A DNA stretch of 52,767 nucleotides from Eubacteriales bacterium (GTDB lineage Bacteria > Bacillota > Clostridia > Lachnospirales > Lachnospiraceae). Made by a program: the position numbers and the translations under genes. This document shows positions 42,805 through 52,767 of this stretch, in pieces (within the stretch, counting starts at the first letter, position 1; each line of letters begins with the position of its first letter). The notes under the pieces are model-generated. The model was given only the letters and a program-made list of their open reading frames with translations, made no database searches and was not told the DNA's origin. The stretch is taken from the NCBI GenBank assembly GCA_030524135.1, contig JAUNHA010000013.1:1-52767 (forward strand), in the 5' to 3' direction.

Positions 42805-43491
42805 TCATGGTAAAGTAGACAGATAAAGTCCTTCCATATCTTCTATTTTTCTATTAAGTGCCAAATGATAAATTCTGTTTGCAACGATATCTGCAGCTCT
42901 GATCAATGTATTCTTACCGGAATCGCAGAACTGTAATTCTATTCCTTCCAGATTATCAAATAAAGGTGGAAAAAATGTATCATACCTGCAATTATACGTT
43001 CCATTCTTAAATTCCTGTTCTAATGCCTCTCTTAACTCATAGTGGCCATTCGTCGCTGTGCTGTGCTCATCATTATAAACATGGATATTGCACACTTCCT
43101 CCCGATTAATCTTATTTTCTTTTAACAAACGCTCTAACGCACGTTTTAATCCAATTTTATAAGCATAATCAAGATAGCGCTGTTTATCCTTTTTACTTTG
43201 AAATATCCGATCCAAAACCCTGTTTTGGTTTATGACCACCCCAAAACGTATCGCTTCATTTAAAGAACGATACAGTTTTCCTTTTTCCTTATTCGTAATT
43301 TTACAGGCTTTCAACTCTTCTTCCGCAGTGTATCCGCCATTAAAACGTATTATTTTTTCAGCCGCGCTGTATTTATGCGCATAATCATCTTTTTGTTTCT
43401 TACCTAAAAAGATTAATCCGCCAAATACATATATCTCATTATGAACTTTGTCAAACACACCAGACTCATCAGAATATACGAACAGATCCAT
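42805..43491 (-). CDS. DUF3800 protein downstream of the CRISPR array
   Basis: A 228-residue protein. The DUF3800 marks are the acidic start MDLFVYSDESG, the internal IHVYNDEHST, and the C-terminal block DSGKNTLIRAADIVANRIYH. The family is predicted to have an RNase H-like fold with acidic active-site residues, is scattered in genomic islands and phages, and is often taken as a defence or toxin-like function. No activity is established. AAAGAGG precedes the ATG. The gene follows the CRISPR terminator on the same strand, and the 100 bases before it fold into a stem enclosing the loop of a possible structured RNA. Its AT-rich composition matches the CRISPR locus rather than the core genes. Confidence 0.82.
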   Translation of the reverse strand: MDLFVYSDESGVFDKVHNEIYVFGGLIFLGKKQKDDYAHKYSAAEKIIRFNGGYTAEEELKACKITNKEKGKLYRSLNEAIRFGVVINQNRVLDRIFQSKKDKQRYLDYAYKIGLKRALERLLKENKINREEVCNIHVYNDEHSTATNGHYELREALEQEFKNGTYNCRYDTFFPPLFDNLEGIELQFCDSGKNTLIRAADIVANRIYHLALNRKIEDMEGLYLSTLP

Positions 43492-43589: not shown

Positions 43590-43678
43590 TATACAGCGTA
43601 TCTCTACCTGCACCCTTACTTTAACATATTCCAGGTTTATTTTAAAGCCATAAATCGTTAATTTTCTATAAATTATAG

Positions 43679-44302
43679 GGATCAATTCACGGTCTCATCC
43701 GAGGCCGACCGAAAAAGGTTGACGTCGATATGCAGGACAACTACGTTTCAACTCACGGCCTCGGATGAGGCCGACCGGCAATGGGCGGATGGAAAACCGA
43801 TCAGGTCATGTTTCAACTCACGTCCTCGGATGAGACCGACCAACAATATTTTTTCCGTCATACGCAGCTATACTGTTTCAACTCACGTCCTCGGATGAGA
43901 CCGACCCGGATAAGATGGTCGGAACCGAAGACGGGCTGATGTTTCAACTCACGTCCTCGGATGAGACCGACCGCTTTCATCTCATACATAGACCTTAACA
44001 GAGTAGTTTCAACTCACGTCCTCGGATGAGACCGACCCTGTTCAGTTTTCTAAGCCAACAGTCAAATTCAGTGTTTCAACTCACGTCCTCGGATGAGACC
44101 GACCGCGTTGTGCATCGTATATAACTAAGTATATAACTGTTTCAACTCACGTCCTCGGATGAGACCGACCGACGGAGGTAGACCCGAAGTATTTCCTATC
44201 CCAAGTTTCAACTCACGTCCTCGGATGAGACCGACCGATACGGTTTGGCGAAAACCTGCTTGATCTCTCTGTTTCAACTCACGTCCTCGGATGAGACCGA
44301 CC
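43679..44302 (-). CRISPR. Type I-C CRISPR array, 10 repeats and 9 spacers
   Basis: The 32-base repeat on the minus strand begins GGTCGGTCTCATCCGAGGAC and ends GTGAGTTGAAAC. Repeat starts on the plus strand: 43679, 43745, 43810, 43875, 43941, 44006, 44073, 44139, 44205, 44271. Spacers are 33-35 bases. The eight repeats nearest cas2 are identical. The next (43745) has two changes that give a perfect 6-bp stem (GGCCTC/GAGGCC). The last (43679) is degenerate, with its hairpin core inverted. Degeneration at the far end places the leader at 44303-44472, next to cas2. Length and the handle ending TTGAAAC agree with type I-C. Confidence 0.97.
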
Positions 44303-44472
44303 GGCAAAATCTTACAATAATATTTAAGATTTCACCACACAATTTGCTAATTTTGTCAATTTTTCTATTATTAATTTTGGCAATAAACGCATAATAAACT
44401 ATTTTAATCTTTATTTCCGATAAAATCTCAGTGCGAATCTCCCATATATTTATGTACACTTTCTATTCGCAC
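44303..44472 (-). promoter_or_regulatory. CRISPR leader
   Basis: An AT-rich, gene-free stretch of 170 bases between cas2 and the first repeat, on the side where repeats are identical. A 9-bp inverted repeat (AGTGCGAAT at 44430-44438, ATTCGCACT at 44465-44473) begins at the cas2 stop codon. TTGACA near the middle could be part of an array promoter, but I see no well-spaced -10. Confidence 0.7.
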
Positions 44473-44763
44473 TTAAAACAGTAAAGGTTCTGATACATCA
44501 AATCCCGGTTTTGCACCTATATGCTCAACCTTATTTTTATATTTATCTCCCAAGTTATAAAACCTTAAACTATCCTTGTCTTTATCAATAATCATTTCCG
44601 GTATCTCCTTTATTTGACGATATTTTACAAGATCAACCTGACATTCAAATACAGAATTTTGCACTCGTTGCCCATAATTTACACACTGTTTAGCCACCTT
44701 TCGCAACCGTCTGCGCCCATCAGATGTCTCAGTATTGACATCATAAGTAATCAAAATCAGCAT
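44473..44763 (-). CDS. cas2: CRISPR-associated endonuclease Cas2
   Basis: A 96-residue protein. It starts MLILITYDVNTETSDGRRRL, with the conserved Asp at the end of the first strand. It continues KVAKQCVNYGQRVQNSVFEC and LRFYNLGDKYKNKVEHIGAK. The ferredoxin-like fold and length are typical for type I-C. Cas2 bridges two Cas1 dimers in the spacer-integration complex. Here its partner gene is broken, so Cas2 should have no adaptation role. It lies 8 bases after the cas1 remnant and next to the leader. Confidence 0.95.
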   Translation of the reverse strand: MLILITYDVNTETSDGRRRLRKVAKQCVNYGQRVQNSVFECQVDLVKYRQIKEIPEMIIDKDKDSLRFYNLGDKYKNKVEHIGAKPGFDVSEPLLF

Positions 44764-44771
44764 ATTACATC

Positions 44772-45804
44772 CTACTTCCAGAAAAAAGGCGGATATTCAT
44801 CTAAATCTCCTCTTAGACAACGTGCAAGAAGCATTGCCTGTACATGCGGTATTAATCCCCATTCCACTTTTTCATTTAAAAAGGGATGTGTAATCAATTC
44901 CTGCTTTCGCTCCTGCCACGCACTTAAGAACACGCTTCTTCCCTTTTCGTTTAAGACAACTGCTCCGCTCTCTGTTTTTATAAAAATCATCCGCGTTTAC
45001 AATTCGTTTATTAATCAATGTCAGAACAAACCGGTCCGCCAAAACGCCTCTCAGTTTCTCCATTAAATCCAACGCAAGAGAAATACGTCCCGGTCTGTCG
45101 GCATGAAAAAATCCCACATATGCATCCAAACCCACTGCTTCTAGCGCCGCTCCGCACATTCCTGCAAGCAAACTATACGCAAAAGAAAGCAATGCATTAA
45201 CATTATCAAGCGGAGGCCGCTTATTTCTTCCCTGAAAAGCAAATTCCTCTTTTTGTTGCAAAATCAATTCATCAAGAACAGAAAAGTATACGGATGCTGC
45301 CTCACCTTCAAGACCTAAAAGTGTTTTGCTGTTGTCGCATTCCCGAATCATTTAAAGACTTTGCTGCAAAATATTTGATTTTAACTTTATGCGTTCCACA
45401 TCAATACGCAATGGGTAATCTCTGATGGCTCTTTCTAGAATCCATCTGGAGTTATATACTTTTCCCAGAATAAAGTTTCTCGCCAACCTGATACTTCCTT
45501 CCGGATGTTCGCTCACTTTATACTGTTGTTTCCTCAGTGTCACATTCCCCCGTACTTCACCGGTGACCCGCGCCAGGAATCATCCATTTCCCGACATAAA
45601 AGTCAGCTCAATATTTCTCTGCGCACAAGCTCCCATCAAGGCCGGACTGGCCCCTGTATATCCAAATGATACAATCCCCTGAATATTATGTAGCGGAATC
45701 CCTCCAATTTCCTCCTGTTTTTCAGAAATGACTACATTTTCACCATCCAAAGAAAGCTATCTGTTTTTACCTGTAACATATAGAGTATTCAACAGTTGCT
45801 TCAT
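44772..45804 (-). pseudogene. cas1: cas1, inactivated by three stops and one frameshift
   Basis: Translating from the ATG at 45804, which overlaps the cas4 stop (ATGA), gives a clear type I-C Cas1. TAG replaces codon 16 (45757-45759, between KNR and LSLDG). TGA replaces codon 75 (45580-45582, between GNG and FLARV, where Arg is expected). TAA replaces codon 151 (45352-45354, between LQQSL and MIREC). An extra T in a T5 run (44982-44986 on the plus strand) shifts the frame after NADDF; the other frame continues IKTESGAVVLNEKGRSVFLS to the end. The total of 1,033 bases is one more than a 343-codon gene, as expected for a single insertion. The region keeps recognisable active-site blocks (LEGEAASVYF, GFFHADRPGRISLALDLMEK), so the loss is recent. 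Confidence 0.95.
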
Positions 45805-46469
45805 GGATTTATTCTCCCTTCATAAATCCTTCCGGATATGTATTCCTTTACAGATATATTTTTATTTAATACAGGCAAACAAATATCCTTCAGTGAACAT
45901 GCATTACAGCTTTTCTTCCACTTAACTTTTGGGGTATATCTCTGTTCATAATACTTATGCATTTCCCCAAACATGTTTTTGACTTTTTGACGTAATTCTG
46001 GATTAAATTCTATTCTTTCACGTCTTCTGATCTCTCCGTAGAAAATATAGCCAAATGCAACCTCACAACACAACATTTCTTCCAAACATAATGCCTGTGC
46101 TGTCAACTGCAGTGCATCTGCATCATGCGATTTCGGGCTTCCCCTTTTATATTCTATTGGAAACACACTATATTTTCCATCTCTTCCAGAAATTGAAATC
46201 CCATCCTCAGATCGATGAAATTCTACCACGTCACACTCGCCACTAATACCAATTTCGCGTGAATGTATAGGCATCGCCCGCACAATAATCAGATCCCCTC
46301 TTTTTTCTTTAATCGAGATATCATGAGCCTTTTCGTGGAGTATTCTTCCTTCCAGAGTTTTTACATTTTCCTGCCATTGCAATTCAATATAAGCCAATGC
46401 CCATTGCCTGCGGCAAAAAGCAAAATGCTGTATTCCGGATAGCTGAAGGAAATCATCTTCGCCGTACAC
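45801..46469 (-). CDS. cas4: CRISPR-associated exonuclease Cas4
   Basis: A 222-residue RecB-like nuclease with an iron-sulfur cluster. The first cluster Cys is in HFAFCRRQWALAYIEL; the remaining three are in CNACSLKDICLP near the end. The nuclease core shows GECDVVEFH and FPIEYKRGSPK. Cas4 trims pre-spacers and checks the PAM during acquisition in I-C systems, in complex with Cas1. The start is a GTG at 46469. With cas1 dead its usual role is gone, yet the frame is intact, which again suggests recent loss of cas1. It overlaps cas1 by 4 bases. Confidence 0.95.
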   Translation of the reverse strand: MYGEDDFLQLSGIQHFAFCRRQWALAYIELQWQENVKTLEGRILHEKAHDISIKEKRGDLIIVRAMPIHSREIGISGECDVVEFHRSEDGISISGRDGKYSVFPIEYKRGSPKSHDADALQLTAQALCLEEMLCCEVAFGYIFYGEIRRRERIEFNPELRQKVKNMFGEMHKYYEQRYTPKVKWKKSCNACSLKDICLPVLNKNISVKEYISGRIYEGRINP

Positions 46470-46484
46470 TCTTTCAACCCCGCT

Positions 46485-47330
46485 TTAAAGTATTTCAGGC
46501 TCTACGCATCCATCTGCTTTCCATTCAATTTCGTAATCTTCAAAAGATGTCGGACGAGCTATCTTTTTAATGTGAAATCCTCTCTGCAGCTCTCCACTGG
46601 AAATAGCCGGTGTTTTTTCCTTATGCTGCCACCAATACATTCTGCATACTTCCATACTTCCTTCAGGTCTTGCAGAAGATGCATCATTTTCAAATAATGT
46701 TCGAAGAGCTTCCTTTAAAAGTTCTGCATCTTCTTGTGAAAAGCCTGTTTTCTCTGCCAATTGTACATTGACACTTCCCATGATCTTATATACGCCATAA
46801 CCAATGCGATGTTTTGTTCCCATCGTATCTGAAGCTTTGCTTTCTTTACCTGCCTCACTATTGACACTTTTCGTGATTTGCATACTGATAACATCAACCG
46901 GAGACAAGCTTACAGCCTGATGAATAGAGACCGGACCACGTACGCCGAATGAAACCTCTTCACCCTTAAATGCGAATACCTGTCCAAAACTTCTAACATC
47001 TATCCATTCCTCACAGGCAATCTTTGCGCAAAGATCGCGATTTGCCTTTTTCTTCTTTGCAATCTCTTCTTTTAATTTAAGACACCCATCAGCTCTATCC
47101 TTCAGGCTTCCGTAACCATCGTCAGCCCTATCATCCGACTGTACAAATATTGTTTGTCCAAGATCCTGCAAACGGTTTCTAATCTTACGTTTAATACAAA
47201 CATCAGAAATTTCTCCATACCCATTCAGGCTAATTCTTGGACGGTTTCCATTTAAAGGATCGCCATTTGGATTAGCATTACAAACACTTACAAATAATGC
47301 AAAATCAATCTTTCCCTTTAACTCACTCAT
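46485..47330 (-). CDS. cas7c: Cas7 (Csd2), type I-C Cascade backbone
   Basis: A 281-residue RAMP protein, MSELKGKIDFALFVSVCNAN then PNGDPLNGNRPRISLNGYGE, with EVSFGVRGPVSIHQAVSLSP and IGYGVYKIMGSVNVQLAEKT. This is the Csd2 family, which polymerises along the crRNA spacer to form the effector backbone. It lies directly between cas8c (adjacent) and cas4 (15 bases). No damage is visible. Confidence 0.96.
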   Translation of the reverse strand: MSELKGKIDFALFVSVCNANPNGDPLNGNRPRISLNGYGEISDVCIKRKIRNRLQDLGQTIFVQSDDRADDGYGSLKDRADGCLKLKEEIAKKKKANRDLCAKIACEEWIDVRSFGQVFAFKGEEVSFGVRGPVSIHQAVSLSPVDVISMQITKSVNSEAGKESKASDTMGTKHRIGYGVYKIMGSVNVQLAEKTGFSQEDAELLKEALRTLFENDASSARPEGSMEVCRMYWWQHKEKTPAISSGELQRGFHIKKIARPTSFEDYEIEWKADGCVEPEIL

Positions 47331-49304
47331 TTATGCTTCCTCCATTTCTTTTGTCTTATAATTTTTGAATTCAAATGACTGACTATGAAATCCCAAAAGA
47401 TATCGCCCATCCAATGGATCATTATCCATAAAACTATCAACCTCAAATAATTGGCAAATACTGTCAATTATATTTTCATAATACTTTCGTTCATTCACAT
47501 TTAATTTATTTAAATAAGGCTGAATACTTTCTTCAATCAATTGCCATGTTTCAAAAGGTCTCCGTGCAAATACACTCATATAGCGTTTTGCATTCGTTAT
47601 CCTGCCACCATCTCCCTCTTTATCAAATGTCCGGTATTCAATCCTGTCTGCAACTGCCAATAACCTTCCATACAAATAATTTCTATCCGTGCAATTCGTA
47701 TTCAATGCCACGTTCCAATCCTCCTTATATATTTCATATCTGTGTTTTTTTACAAAAGAACATGCCAATGACAGCACACGTTCCCAATTATAACGTTTTG
47801 CGTACGACTGCGGAGAGGATGCCTTGTTTACAGCAATCTGAACAAGGTCATAGTGAATATTTCTCTTATCCCAAATACACGGAAGCAACCTCCTGCTTAT
47901 TTCTGCATACAGGCGTTTTCCATTTTTATCTCGTATTCTTAATGTCTTAACTGTATCAGCATCTCCCGATTCCGTTCCGTAGAGAATATCCGCAATTTCT
48001 TTTATTCCCGGTATTCCATAATACTGAATTCTTCTTCCATTTTTAAATTTTTCCTGTATCCATCCACCATGTTCATGCCAGTTTTGTATGTTCTCCAGAT
48101 ATCTCGTTGCTTCCAGCTGTTTATATTCTATCATTGATACCCGTCCTGACGTGGCAGCATCAAATGCCATTAATAGCATTCTAGATGTAAAATCTACTTG
48201 CCGCTTATACCCCACCATTGCTTGATAGAGTTGCTTTGCTGTAACCATGTTTTCATCTGATACAATGTTTCTTTCATTGCTCTCTTCTATTTCAGTGTAT
48301 TCGTCTTCCCCCCAATCATCCTCAGCACTTGTCTCTTCCTCTGTTTTATCCATGGAACTGATTTTTTCAGTATCTTCATCCCATTCAGGTAACCTGGCCA
48401 TCGACGTTTCCCATGAAACCATCTCCAACGTATCAAAACTATGCCCTTGTTTTCGAATAATCCATTTTAACGCATTGTGTATCTTTTGCGAAGTTTCACT
48501 TCCAATAGAAAACGCTTCTTCCTTAGAAACAAATCTTCCCCTAAAGGTAAAATTAGTACTATCATTTGATGAGATCAATTTTGCGCCATCTCCCTCATTT
48601 CGGATTTTTTTAGAATGAAGGTATGTTGGATATTCCATTCGTCCCGTCAAATAATCCAGCTCTTTTTTCTGATTCATAAAGCTGTAATAATCAATAAAAG
48701 CCTGATGCAAAGTTTGATCTTTCCAACATGTTTCTTCCAAAATATAATCTGTCAATTTCTGTCTTATAACAAATCTGATAAACACTTTTTCCTGTGGTAT
48801 ATTTTGTATTTTTACATTCTCATCTAACTTTCCATCTCCATCAAGAACAAGAATTTTACTACTTACCAGATCTTCAAACAAACACCTTTTCTTCAAATAA
48901 TAATAAACTGCATCAACTTTTTTATGTGTATAATTCGACAAATGCCACTGTTCCAAAGCACAAATGTAAAGATCATAGCTCTCTTCTGATCCATAACCTG
49001 TGAGATACTGCAAATTATCACACAAAGGATGGGGTGCTTTTCCTGCTGTCCTGCTTCCGGATTTTTCTGTTACCGGTATAATTGTCATCTTGTCATCTTC
49101 GGCAACTATTGATGCACTCAGAAAATTCCCGTCAGAATCAATTATAACCTCTAGCTGTGCAGTCACCGTTGTATGAAACGGCGGCAGCAACACATATGGG
49201 ATACGTTCTATTTTTCCATTATGCTTATACTCCTTATATTGAATCTGACCCGCTATCTCACTATTTCTTTCGTACAGATTCAGTAATTCTTCTGCCCAGC
49301 TCAA
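47331..49304 (-). CDS. cas8c: Cas8c (Csd1), large subunit of type I-C Cascade
   Basis: A 657-residue protein of the Csd1 family: MSWAEELLNLYERNSEIAGQ, RIPYVLLPPFHTTVTAQLEV, then DNLQYLTGYGSEESYDLYIC, and NKLNVNERKYYENIIDSICQ near the C-terminus. In type I-C it recognises the PAM and, by internal translation, also supplies the Cas11-like small subunit. An acidic insert (EDDWGEDEYTEIEESNE) precedes the C-terminal helical part that would correspond to Cas11c; an internal start near there (47331-47900 region) was not located with certainty. The ATG overlaps the cas5c stop. Confidence 0.95.
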   Translation of the reverse strand: MSWAEELLNLYERNSEIAGQIQYKEYKHNGKIERIPYVLLPPFHTTVTAQLEVIIDSDGNFLSASIVAEDDKMTIIPVTEKSGSRTAGKAPHPLCDNLQYLTGYGSEESYDLYICALEQWHLSNYTHKKVDAVYYYLKKRCLFEDLVSSKILVLDGDGKLDENVKIQNIPQEKVFIRFVIRQKLTDYILEETCWKDQTLHQAFIDYYSFMNQKKELDYLTGRMEYPTYLHSKKIRNEGDGAKLISSNDSTNFTFRGRFVSKEEAFSIGSETSQKIHNALKWIIRKQGHSFDTLEMVSWETSMARLPEWDEDTEKISSMDKTEEETSAEDDWGEDEYTEIEESNERNIVSDENMVTAKQLYQAMVGYKRQVDFTSRMLLMAFDAATSGRVSMIEYKQLEATRYLENIQNWHEHGGWIQEKFKNGRRIQYYGIPGIKEIADILYGTESGDADTVKTLRIRDKNGKRLYAEISRRLLPCIWDKRNIHYDLVQIAVNKASSPQSYAKRYNWERVLSLACSFVKKHRYEIYKEDWNVALNTNCTDRNYLYGRLLAVADRIEYRTFDKEGDGGRITNAKRYMSVFARRPFETWQLIEESIQPYLNKLNVNERKYYENIIDSICQLFEVDSFMDNDPLDGRYLLGFHSQSFEFKNYKTKEMEEA

Positions 49305-50038
49305 ACACCCACCCCCTCTTCTGTAAATTCCTTCAGCCCCGAAAAATTATCCTTTCCAAATTTTTTAACACTCATTTCTCTAATGAAACGTTTTTCCGTA
49401 CAGTCTTCCGGCCTGATAAATTCAATAAAACCACCTTTCTTCATTACCGGCCTCCAGAAATTCACCGTCATCTTACCTTTTTCTTCTGGCAAAACAGCTT
49501 CATCTGCATAGGTGATTCCGTGATACATAAAGCCATAGGAAACTTCGCCGGGCATATCATCATAATAACTAGGGCCTTCTCCAAATGTACATGCTTTAAC
49601 AAATGCCTGGCATTCCCGTGTTCCTAAAAAAACATCCCTGCGCCCCCCTCGCTTTGCCATTCTCATCGCAATGTTATGATGCTTATTTTCGTTTCGGTCT
49701 CCTTCCAGTTCAGGATGATTGTAGTTCCATTCAAAGTGTGCTCTTACCTGATAACTTACTTCTTTTAAATATGTATAGTAAGCAAGTTCATTTCCACCAT
49801 TATAGGAAAGCGGACGTACGCTCTTTGTTTCAGTTTGTATTGGCTTCATTACGCGAACTGCGTCTATAATCCACATAAACGTTGGCTTCCAATAAACGCT
49901 TTCCATAATCCCTTTCAATGCCTCATATGTCGGAATATGATAACTGGATTTTTCTCCCCCAACCCGGGTAACTGGATCTGCAAACAGCGCCTCTTTTCCG
50001 TATACTTCAAATTCTACCGTGTTTCTATATTTATCCAC
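49301..50038 (-). CDS. cas5c: Cas5c (Cas5d), crRNA-processing subunit
   Basis: A 245-residue RAMP protein: NTVEFEVYGKEALFADPVTR, ALKGIMESVYWKPTFMWIID, and NENKHHNIAMRMAKRGGRRD. In type I-C, which lacks Cas6, this protein cuts the pre-crRNA at the base of the repeat hairpin; Tyr, Lys and His form the active site in the Bacillus halodurans enzyme. A Tyr in the SVYW region and the KHH block are visible here. It stays bound to the 5' handle of the crRNA. It should therefore also process the repeat-like unit at 52659-52689 if that is transcribed. Confidence 0.95.
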   Translation of the reverse strand: MDKYRNTVEFEVYGKEALFADPVTRVGGEKSSYHIPTYEALKGIMESVYWKPTFMWIIDAVRVMKPIQTETKSVRPLSYNGGNELAYYTYLKEVSYQVRAHFEWNYNHPELEGDRNENKHHNIAMRMAKRGGRRDVFLGTRECQAFVKACTFGEGPSYYDDMPGEVSYGFMYHGITYADEAVLPEEKGKMTVNFWRPVMKKGGFIEFIRPEDCTEKRFIREMSVKKFGKDNFSGLKEFTEEGVGV

Positions 50039-50055
50039 AAGTTCACCTCCATCCC

Positions 50056-52494
50056 TTAAAAATTCAAAAATTGTTTTTTAGCCCGATCCAAAATTCCTTT
50101 TTTTAGATCATAAAAGTCCATATTCAAAATTAATATCCCTTTATCACTGATACTATGAAGTGCGTTTTTTAATTTTTCTTTTTTATAACACGAAATCCCT
50201 ACAGTATAACGCTGCAGTATCTGTAAGGCAGCTCTTTGTTCTGCCGGTGAAGTATACGCATTCTCCAATTTTGCAATCTGTTCTTTTGCTATATCATTGT
50301 ATGGAATAATCACTGATATATCAGCATTTTCAGAAATCACCTCGAACTTTTCTCCTGCAGTTTGAAACGCTTGTTTCAAAGTCCGTTTAGGCATTTTTTT
50401 CCCATATCGTCTTTCATACCTAAACGCTGCCAGATCGTTCTCCCCTAGCAGGTTTACCAAATTCGTCTCTAACTCCGGAACAGGAAATTTCGTTGTCGCC
50501 ATATCGAATTTATGAAAATAAAGTTCATAATAACGTTTAATCGAAGACTGTGATGTCAATCCCCCCTGAAACGCTTCCGGTTCCCGCTCATATTCATACA
50601 ATAATCTTTCACATGCAGACTGTGCCCGGCGGATTTCGCCTAATTTATCTACATTTTCAGCCTCATGCGACAACTTTACAATAAATACTTTCCCCATACC
50701 TTCCAGTTCCTTATGACGGTTACACCTTCCGGCAGCCTGAATCACATTATCTAATCCAGCCAAAGAGCGAATCACGCACGCAAAAGAAAAATCCACTCCT
50801 GCTTCAACCAGTTGTGTACTGACACAAATAACAGGTCTTTTTTGTTCTAAATCCCGTTTCAAAGCCTCTAATTCATCAGATTGATGTTCCGGACACATAT
50901 TTCTGCTTAAATGATAAAGCGCTTTATTATCCACGCATTCTTCCAATGCCTCATATAAATCATATGCCGTTTTTCTGGTATTCACAATTACTAATACCGA
51001 TCCATAAGTTCTGAATGAATCTAAAACAAAATCTTTCAAATTCTCAATCGACATGCCTCCAATTTCTGAACCTGTCCGATCTACTATCTCCACTCTGCGA
51101 AAAACTTCTTGATATTTTTTAGCTTCCCCTGACATTTCTTCACAATTTAATAAATTGTTTTCTCGAAGCCGGGCTAGAGACGGCTGGGTTGCAGAACAAA
51201 GGACCACTGTCGTATTACAGAAAAGTGTGAGGAAATTAACTGCAAGATTGAACAATTCTATACACGATACAGGAATGGCTTGTACTTCATCAAAAACCAT
51301 TACCGAATTACATAAATTATACATTCTTCTTATATTGGTCTTTTGTCCTGAAAACAACGAGTTCAATATTTGCACCGCTGACGTAACAACAATTAGAGAA
51401 TCTCCCCAATTTTCAGTCAATTTTCTATATTCTTCTTCACTCGCTTCATTTTCATATTGAACATTGCAATGATGCTCCAGAATATATTTCGAATTTCCAA
51501 CAGCTTTTCTGATCTCCTTGGCATTTTGTATCAAAATAGAGTTGTAAGGAGCTGCATAAAAAATTCTTTGTTTTTCATATTTCTGAGCATGATATAATGC
51601 AAATCGCAAACTGCTTAGCGTCTTCCCTGCTCCCGTAGGTACTGTAAGCCAATAACAACTTTCTGATTTCTGTGCCATCTGGTAACACCGCTTTGATATC
51701 TCGTTTCTATATTGATTCAATTTGCTTGCTTTCCCCGAGGCATTTAGCCTTTGCATATAGAGCTCATAGCTTTGAATCATATCTTTCCAGACAGCATCTC
51801 TTGTTTCCTGAGAAATTCCTTCCGGTAATGGAAGGCCATTTGAAAAACAAGCTGTATCAGTCCAATCACTATCGATTAATATCGATAAAAGAACTCTTTG
51901 ATACATTCCCTGATAAAACTCCAACCCATCCTTTACAGCATATTTATTCAACTCTACCTCAATGTCATCATAAACTGCCTTAAGATCCCTGCTCGCAGCT
52001 TTCATAAGATTTATGATTTCACTTTTATTATATAACTGGAAAAAAGCATCTGTTACCTCTTCAATTTCCGGATTGCCTTCTCTTCGTTTATCAGACAGTG
52101 TTTGACCTGTTTCCAAGTTTATACAATCGTACAGTCCATGATGTGAATACACCATAGTACCTACCACTTTCGAAACCAAACGATTTCCAGCCGTATTCTC
52201 TATAATAAGGCCACCTGCTGAAGAATGATCAATAAACCTTTTCGAAACTGCGTCGCCAAATTCCATAATCTCTTTCATATATGCCTGAAACTCCGAACAG
52301 AGCTTGCCGCAATCATGCAGCAGCGAAGCGATGCACACTATATTTATCAGCATTTTTAGGGGGCAGTTTTTTTTAGCCAGATACCTTACATTTTCTAAAT
52401 GAAATAACAACGGCTGTATTTCTTTTGTCTGAGGATTTATATGACCTGTATAGGAGATTTTATTTGTCACACTAGTTATGTACCCGCTCACCAT
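50056..52494 (-). CDS. cas3: Cas3 nuclease-helicase (HD plus SF2 helicase)
   Basis: An 812-residue fusion. The HD nuclease at the N-terminus shows FHLENVRYL, LLHDCGKLCSEFQAYMKE, DHSSAGGLI and VYSHHGLYDC. The helicase follows: TVPTGAGKTLSSLRFALYHA (Walker A), MVFDEVQAIP (a DEVQ variant of the DExH box), VVLCSATQPSLA (motif III) and IQAAGRCNRHKE (motif VI). All metal and ATP residues look intact. Cas3 is recruited to target-bound Cascade and degrades the DNA. AAAGGGGGTGTA precedes the ATG. It is the first gene of the operon, with a sigma-A-like promoter at 52540-52568. Confidence 0.96.
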   Translation of the reverse strand: MVSGYITSVTNKISYTGHINPQTKEIQPLLFHLENVRYLAKKNCPLKMLINIVCIASLLHDCGKLCSEFQAYMKEIMEFGDAVSKRFIDHSSAGGLIIENTAGNRLVSKVVGTMVYSHHGLYDCINLETGQTLSDKRREGNPEIEEVTDAFFQLYNKSEIINLMKAASRDLKAVYDDIEVELNKYAVKDGLEFYQGMYQRVLLSILIDSDWTDTACFSNGLPLPEGISQETRDAVWKDMIQSYELYMQRLNASGKASKLNQYRNEISKRCYQMAQKSESCYWLTVPTGAGKTLSSLRFALYHAQKYEKQRIFYAAPYNSILIQNAKEIRKAVGNSKYILEHHCNVQYENEASEEEYRKLTENWGDSLIVVTSAVQILNSLFSGQKTNIRRMYNLCNSVMVFDEVQAIPVSCIELFNLAVNFLTLFCNTTVVLCSATQPSLARLRENNLLNCEEMSGEAKKYQEVFRRVEIVDRTGSEIGGMSIENLKDFVLDSFRTYGSVLVIVNTRKTAYDLYEALEECVDNKALYHLSRNMCPEHQSDELEALKRDLEQKRPVICVSTQLVEAGVDFSFACVIRSLAGLDNVIQAAGRCNRHKELEGMGKVFIVKLSHEAENVDKLGEIRRAQSACERLLYEYEREPEAFQGGLTSQSSIKRYYELYFHKFDMATTKFPVPELETNLVNLLGENDLAAFRYERRYGKKMPKRTLKQAFQTAGEKFEVISENADISVIIPYNDIAKEQIAKLENAYTSPAEQRAALQILQRYTVGISCYKKEKLKNALHSISDKGILILNMDFYDLKKGILDRAKKQFLNF

Positions 52495-52539
52495 TACACC
52501 CCCTTTTCCAACTTCAATACATTTTTATCTGATACCCCT

Positions 52540-52568
52540 ATGTTAGCTTGTTTATAGTTTCTTGTCAA
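52540..52568 (-). promoter_or_regulatory. cas operon promoter
   Basis: On the minus strand a perfect TTGACA (complement of 52563-52568) and TAACAT (complement of 52540-52545) are separated by 17 bases, about 45 bases before the cas3 start. The stretch immediately upstream of the -35 box holds the 11-base match to the repeat-like unit's spacer. Confidence 0.7.
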
Positions 52569-52574
52569 TATTAT

Positions 52575-52585
52575 ATAGTAACATA
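52575..52585 (-). promoter_or_regulatory. Seed-match target upstream of the cas3 -35 box
   Basis: Minus strand ATGTTACTATA, six bases upstream of TTGACA, is identical to plus-strand 52690-52700, which directly follows the handle of the repeat-like unit. The three minus-strand bases before it are TTT, close to the TTC motif favoured by type I-C effectors. The match is 11 bases, extending to 12 if the last handle base is counted. Confidence 0.5.
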
Positions 52586-52658
52586 AATATTTTTAATTAA
52601 TGAGCTTTCTTAAGAAGTTCTTGTCTGATTTTTTTATATATGTTACCCTATTAGTGTC

Positions 52659-52723
52659 AAATGATACCTCATCATTTGTGAGTTGAAATATGTTACTATA
52701 AAAAAGGGGCTATCGGTTAATAT
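52659..52723 (+). ncRNA. Repeat-like crRNA unit (CreR-like candidate) divergent from cas3
   Basis: Plus strand: AAATGAT (52659-52665), loop ACCTC, ATCATTT (52671-52677), a perfect 7-bp hairpin. GTGAGTTGAAAT (52678-52689) follows and matches 11 of the 12 handle bases of the array repeats. Hairpin plus handle is the layout Cas5c recognises and cuts, while the hairpin sequence itself differs from the array. The next 34 bases would be the guide; its first 11 match DNA just upstream of the cas3 -35 box. I see no strong plus-strand promoter, but TTGTCT at 52621 is a possible -35. The 3' end is not defined, and a weak leftward terminator-like dyad (52705-52738) overlaps the guide. Confidence 0.5.
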
Positions 52724-52767
52724 CGAGTTTTGACCCCTAAACATGAAGAATGAGACAGATCTTGATT

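Follow-up and report, generated by a model that had tools for sequence, protein, structure and literature searches.

Upstream of cas3 in a type I-C CRISPR-Cas operon we found a single degenerate CRISPR repeat followed by a short guide that matches the cas3 promoter. Judged from the comparisons described below, this element probably evolved as a CreR-like cas-regulating guide RNA of the type I-C system (probability roughly 0.86), its function being a prediction. The window, that is, the whole stretch of 52,767 nucleotides analysed here, is an entire contig (C50) of a draft genome.

The type I-C locus

The window carries a type I-C cas3-cas5c-cas8c-cas7c operon (Table 1), recognised by profile matches for cas8c and Cas3 and by homology between loci for cas5 and cas7. 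On the minus strand the order is cas3, cas5c, cas8c, cas7c, cas4, a damaged cas1, cas2 and then an array of ten repeat units. The names cas5c and cas7c are presumed from the place of the genes in the operon. Cas5c is the crRNA-processing nuclease of type I-C systems. The reading frames of cas3, cas5, cas8c and cas7 are open in the window. Those of cas2 and cas4 are open as well, unlike that of cas1 (44775-45804, minus strand), in which homology along the protein is split over two frames and no open piece exceeds 159 aa. The broken cas1 lends some support to the statement in a first-pass annotation of this DNA that spacer acquisition is impossible at this locus. At the end of the array distal to the cas genes, the last copy (43678-43721) is degenerate, with 61% identity to the reference copy over 44 nt, and a gene for a DUF3800 protein (42805-43491, minus strand) lies just past the array.

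Table 1. Features of the type I-C locus and of the element upstream of cas3
Feature	Positions	Strand	Basis or remark
cas3	50056..52494	-	Pfam Cas3_HD, DEAD, Cas3-like_C
cas5c	49301..50038	-	ORF; homology to the gene at the equal position in other loci
cas8c (Csd1)	47331..49304	-	TIGR01863, PF09709
cas7c (Csd2)	46485..47330	-	ORF; homologs in other loci
CRISPR array	43678..44313	-	Ten repeat units of ~66 bp each; repeat end GTGAGTTGAAAC
Full-length degenerate I-C psi-repeat	52656..52689	+	Sequence, array repeat consensus, stem statistic
Native part of guide, ATGTTACTATAAAAAA	52690..52705	+	1-14 identical to the target apart from position 12
Protospacer-like target adjoining the cas3 -35 box on its upstream side	52571..52584	-	Guide-target comparison
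PAM-like TTT	52585..52587	-	Same trinucleotide at targets of L075, L081, L082, L100, L182, L184, L187
cas3 promoter, TTGACA-N17-TAACAT (10 of 12)	52540..52568	-	Promoter scan
Weak candidate unit promoter (TTGTCT ... TATGTTACCCT)	52621..52649	+	By eye
IS terminal repeat, interrupts unit	52706..52767	+	Start exact to a few bases; contig ends inside

A degenerate repeat with a crRNA-type handle

The psi-repeat consists of GTC (52656-52658), a stem strand AAATGAT, a loop ACCTC, a second stem strand ATCATTT and the 5′ handle GTGAGTTGAAAT. This is the layout of the whole locus repeat according to the array consensus. The hairpin spans 52659-52677 and has a 7-bp stem of new sequence. Within the handle, the 11-mer GTGAGTTGAAA (52678-52688, plus strand) has nine other exact copies in the window, all of them in the CRISPR array on the minus strand. 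The psi-repeat handle is identical to the array handle in these 11 bases, and a crRNA-type handle is supplied outside the array. The first-pass annotation had described this handle, with its 11 identical bases, and a 7-bp hairpin; both are present, but the repeat is of full length and also includes GTC. The start that it gave to the guide had to be shifted, since T52689 is the last base of the repeat and the guide begins at 52690.

In order to judge the hairpin, its stem was compared with control positions. Counted with the flanking C-G pair, the 8-bp stem was equalled at none of up to 60 sampled control positions in the same region. Plain RNA folding of a 40-nt piece favours two smaller hairpins over that of the psi-repeat. 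A search of 43600-52767 against Rfam found no known family; the sole match, n00280, was weak (E 0.18) and lay inside cas8c.

The guide matches the cas3 promoter

The target reads ATGTTACTATATAA on the minus strand (52584-52571). The guide matches it exactly over 11 nt, followed by a mismatch at position 12 and two further matches, or 13 of 14 positions. An 11-base seed identity upstream of the cas3 -35 box, claimed from the first reading of the sequence, was thereby confirmed and extends to 14 nt. The -35 box TTGACA begins two bases beyond the target, and the matched promoter lies ~45 bp ahead of the cas3 start codon and points towards the gene. When the 161-nt interval from cas3 to the unit was shuffled with dinucleotide composition preserved, 11 of 2000 shuffles attained the observed match anywhere and 1 attained it beside a YTY PAM. 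An equally good match to the guide was present in none of the 116 other I-C upstream regions, and by the flat score described below this spacer-like sequence, whose complementarity to the cas promoter is partial, ranked 0 of 116. For the window unit alone the chance statistics are good but not overwhelming, so the decision rests with the relatives.

The trinucleotide TTT that adjoins the target had been taken for a possible weak PAM. It does adjoin the target, but it need not be weak. The four unit-bearing loci with the Cas7 most similar to that of the window (L075, L081, L082 and L100; 71-82%) all show TTT as well, and TTT may therefore be the cognate PAM of the clade that includes these loci and the window.

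The remark that a rightward promoter for the unit is not obvious still applies. The plus-strand candidate in Table 1 is weak and was not returned by the promoter scan, which reported three plus-strand sites at 52529-52591 instead; the scan found 4 sites against a chance level of 1.5 in all, both strands included. A third copy of TATGTTAC at 52639-52646 lacks a YTY PAM; it may serve as the -10 element in the unit's promoter.

Guides and targets in related loci

In the family, 80 of 397 genomes contain Cas8c (TIGR01863), as do 61 of 391 genomes drawn from the class. We took 133 loci from these genomes; with the window, 117 of 134 regions were usable and 17 were dropped. Each region comprised at most 700 bp ahead of the cas3 reading frame. 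Using a flat score, which ignores the PAM and the place of mismatches, each stand-alone handle-like unit was tested against its own region and the other 116. For L044, L087 and L100, where the repeats were wrongly oriented, the handle was replaced by three common handles in this test.

There were 47 such units in 41 of the 117 regions. Thirteen ranked first and 18 had a rank of 0 or 1. A YTY PAM was present in 17 of these 18, and 21 of the 23 mismatches in the 17 top YTY units were at guide position 6, 12 or 18. The eighteenth, that of L114, ranked first yet has GAA in the PAM place and is mismatched at positions 3, 5 and 11. The L167 unit, with a handle, TTC as PAM and a mismatch at position 6, had rank 4; it fell under the pair-scan threshold and was left out of the count. 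Twenty-one of the 47 units ranked worse than 6 of 116. Consequently, many stand-alone handles either carry no guide of this type or are too weak to be judged.

Decoys were produced by permuting the handle. Four such handles yielded 38 units; 4 ranked first, none of them with a YTY PAM, and two of the four were one 24-nt tandem copy in L120. With 40 permuted handles we obtained 469 units, of which 16 had a rank of 0 or 1 and three of the 16 had a YTY PAM. These three correspond to the actual units of L081, L082 and the window, picked up since one permutation is similar to the handle. Even with the three real units included, 6 mismatches in the 16 top decoys were at multiples of six and 21 were elsewhere.

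These counts bear on the view that the unit is a stray repeat left by a decayed array and that its match to the promoter is due to chance. Some stand-alone handles lack a match (L037, L051), a degenerate second repeat lies 65 bp upstream of the L082 unit, and the 21 poorly ranked units would fit such an origin. Nevertheless, 13 of 47 units ranked first of 117 regions by a score that contains neither PAM nor periodicity, and the top-ranked decoys lacked the PAM. We regard a stray repeat as very improbable, and a chance match was rejected on the flat score, the pair scan, the shuffles and the decoys.

We also carried out a pair scan. Its score includes the PAM and the six-base periodicity, so it is no independent test of either; only the flat-score, decoy and related counts are. 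The scan matched 28 of the 117 regions. Four altered anchors matched 2, 4, 6 and 2 regions, a fifth, which fits one real handle, matched 8, and other PAM classes matched 1-5. Other periods gave 22-26 regions at the same threshold and 12-20 at the strictest, compared with 26. Mismatches occurred at position 6 in 14 of the 28 regions, at position 12 in 23 of 28 and at position 18 in 4 of 9, once each at positions 2, 5, 14 and 15, and at none of positions 1, 3, 4, 7-11, 13, 16 and 17. The PAM was TTC in 10 regions, CTC in 9, TTT in 5 (window, L075, L081, L082, L100) and CTT in 4, and the scored pairing in the relatives ended at position 14-22.

Among named genomes, 80 loci gave 66 usable regions, 9 already in the first set and 57 new. 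The scan matched 11 of the 66; three altered anchors matched 2 regions each, and other PAM classes matched 0-4. Three of the matches had already been counted (L172, L173, L174) and 8 were new, 6 of these with a handle; L216 and L225 passed the scan without a handle and were dropped by eye. Three of the six new units have TTT (L182, L184, L187). Among the named genomes with a unit are Coprococcus catus VPIC661, Hominifimenecus microfluidus CLA-AA-H215, Clostridium sp. C105KSO13 and Enterococcus rivorum LMG 25899. L082, which is Coprococcus catus VPIC661 by record L172, has a 17-nt exact match beside TTT and ahead of TTGACT.

In all, 34 of 174 I-C cas3-upstream regions have a stand-alone handle and a matching guide, in 27 guide clusters, and the search of at most 700 bp showed no unit in the other 140. 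The first-pass annotation had predicted, upstream of related cas3 genes, a unit of handle and hairpin with a seed that changes together with the cas promoter; the 34 units, with mismatches at every sixth position and a YTY PAM, bear this out. Two loci with close Cas proteins, L092 (G056) and L099 (G146), had no unit upstream of cas3 in the region searched; the cas3 of L092 is the most similar to that of the window (52%), though no unit was found there.

PAM class seems to go with the clade more than with the handle. The handle GTGAGTAGAAA occurs with CTT or CTC, GTGGATTGAAA with TTC or TTT, and GTGAGTTGAAA with TTT (window, L081, L082) or CTC (the L126 group).

Co-variation of guide and target

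Six loci (L124, L126, L127, L130, L131 and L132) share one guide family and allow guide and target to be compared directly. L126, L130 and L132 have the guide TTTAGAAATTATTATGT and the target TTTAGAAATTAATATGT; the corresponding pairs are TTTAAAAATTATTATAT and TTTAATAATTAATATAT in L131, TTTTAAAATTATTATAT and TTTTACAATTAATATAT in L124, and TTTAAAAATTATTGCAT and TTTAATAATTATTGTAT in L127. Compared by eye, positions 4, 5, 14 and 16 change on both sides while positions 6 and 12 drift; position 15 of L127 differs on one side only. Type I Cascade leaves every sixth base unpaired. This co-variation is what pairing by Cascade predicts, and not what a protein operator predicts.

An operator had been kept as an alternative in the first-pass annotation. 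According to this explanation the inverted repeat TATGTTACTATA binds a protein repressor, as the third TATGTTAC within the same 250 bp might indicate. The word varies among the loci of the relatives, however, and guide and target can be in direct orientation (L082, L101, L103, L115, L184); in addition, one copy follows a repeat handle and the mismatches fall at every sixth position. We therefore rejected the protein operator, since neither word nor orientation is conserved and the six-base periodicity is present, and consider it highly unlikely. Given 17 of 18 top units with a YTY PAM, 21 of 23 mismatches at 6, 12 or 18, and decoys without this pattern, neither a protein operator nor chance explains the PAM and the spacing of mismatches.

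Architecture of the units

The hairpin before the handle keeps its place while its sequence differs: 21 of 34 units reached a stem score of 5, compared with 137 of 1810 control positions. A new observation is that in most units the guide is followed by a terminator-like hairpin with a T-run. A score of 9 was reached by 29 of 34 units versus 611 of 1810 control positions, a rate that shows this score to be lenient. Under loose rules and with no control, 33 of 34 units (all but L115) had promoter-like pairs no more than 80 bp from the target. In the L124-L132 group the hairpin after the guide resembles a second repeat with a T-run behind it (for instance GTCGCGCCCCGTAAGGGGCGCGTGAGTTTTAT in L127), so the terminator of this group may have been derived from a second repeat. 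L083 has two tandem handles (GTGGATTGAAAAATAGTGTGGATTGAAGA), and the second carries a guide matching the promoter region. The further degenerate repeat of L082 (G049:C33) stands at array-like spacing from the unit.

An insertion sequence interrupts the unit in the window

In the window the native unit is cut after about guide nt 16 (the guide is native to ~52705) and its 3′ end is no longer native. The last 55 bases of the window recur unchanged at the start of contig C61, behind apt. In C61 (G000:C61:1-62) this IS terminal repeat lies within a few bases of the apt stop codon, the gene having been named by eye. Both C50 and C61 end in one IS terminal repeat; no further match is present in the assembly, which suggests a collapsed element. 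A stretch similar to the IS end occurs in 13 of 397 family genomes, the source genome included. In 4 of 7 loci of other genomes (L265, L266, L268, L269) the GGGGCT...TCGG end stands beside different flanks, so the stretch belongs to the IS. The query itself began at 52706, and the boundary, exact to a few bases, rests on the flanks. The two open frames tested beside the IS end (L265, L266) both encode DDE_Tnp_1_6 transposases, and we take the element to be IS1182-like. Searches for the IS end in viral contigs, in plasmids and in the genus outside the source genome (1 of 25), and for contigs across genomes with the Cas3 of the window, gave nothing informative. An earlier idea, that the window unit ends in a terminator stem broken by the IS, was dropped because the differing flanks assign this stretch to the IS.

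Hairpin scoring found no terminator-like hairpin in the window unit, since the IS end follows the guide. Any terminator has thus been displaced and the present activity of this copy is uncertain. We consider it quite possible, if short of probable, that the unit is CreR-like in origin but no longer functional, the IS having removed its 3′ part in a locus that, with a broken cas1, is decaying as a whole. The cut at ~52706, the contrast with the 29 of 34 units that have a terminator-like hairpin and the two-frame cas1 all point this way. On the other hand, the seed, PAM and psi-repeat are intact, the effector genes and cas3 are open, and pairing in the relatives ends at 14-22 anyway. With seed and handle retained, activity of the window copy is possible but not assured.

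DISCUSSION

We propose that the unit would act as follows. A short plus-strand transcript would carry the one degenerate repeat, and Cas5c would cut below the hairpin to leave a handle as on crRNAs. Cascade (Cas5c-Cas8c-Cas7) loaded with this RNA would recognise TTT and ~13 matching bases by the cas3 -35 box and would sit on the cas3 promoter, the pairing being too limited for Cas3 to be recruited. Free effector in surplus would thus shut the operon down, and derepression would follow once crRNAs or inhibitors had tied the effector up. All these steps are inferred, from transcription through processing and binding to repression and the purpose it serves.

CreR is named for types I-B, I-E and V-A in the available text of a review (PMC13131331) and is called widespread in type I and V-A in that of two further papers (PMC12737573; PMC12948488). 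As far as these texts describe CreR, our unit resembles it in being a crRNA-like unit in a cas locus whose guide has limited complementarity to a cas promoter. It differs in belonging to type I-C, in having one psi-repeat, in that processing would be by Cas5c, and in the terminator-like hairpin that follows most I-C units, although the copy in this genome is cut by the IS. CreA of CreTA consists, in the accessible part of its description, of one or two repeat-like sequences and a spacer-like sequence (PMC9458426); it likewise has a degenerate repeat and a guide partly complementary to a promoter, and works through Cascade. In contrast to CreTA, the promoter matched here drives cas3 and has no toxin gene under it.

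Solitary repeats that enter Cas complexes, the RNA anti-CRISPRs called Racr, are carried by phages and other mobile elements and inhibit by mimicry, and a type I-C case is reported in the available text of PMC10651486. The unit could in the same way be a repeat mimic that titrates Cas proteins, with an incidental promoter match. In that text Racr have no promoter-matching guide. The unit here lies in the cas locus, beside cas3, and carries a guide that matches the promoter, as in 33 other regions. We consider a mimic very improbable and favour the CreR-like guide RNA.

Among the matches listed in our literature search, no such type I-C unit was recognised from titles and the starts of abstracts. 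For many type I systems, a 2023 NAR survey of CRISPR-derived RNA regulatory elements by Shmakov (gkad495) reportedly predicts stand-alone repeats whose guides are directed at cas promoters, and it may predict I-C cases. With the reservation that this survey may cover I-C, the type I-C case would be a new form of CreR-type self-regulation.

More broadly, we lean towards the view that in Clostridia, and in at least one Enterococcus, type I-C systems repress themselves by means of a reduced guide with a single repeat. Its 5′ end would be made by Cas5c and its 3′ end by an intrinsic terminator, which in L124-L132 seems to be a second repeat turned terminator. Pairing would mostly cover about three Cas7 segments (1-5, 7-11, 13-17), and the guide would have been re-targeted many times.

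If this is true, crRNA-like self-repression extends to a major type I subtype without Cas6, in a design simpler than a two-repeat mini-CRISPR. The 34 natural guide-promoter pairs, with their evolved partial matches, could be used to gauge the pairing that Cascade needs without calling Cas3. The units may also let the PAM of uncharacterised I-C clades be read (TTT, TTC, CTC or CTT here). Finally, the proposal, if true, predicts how an I-C locus responds when crRNAs or anti-CRISPRs tie up the effector.
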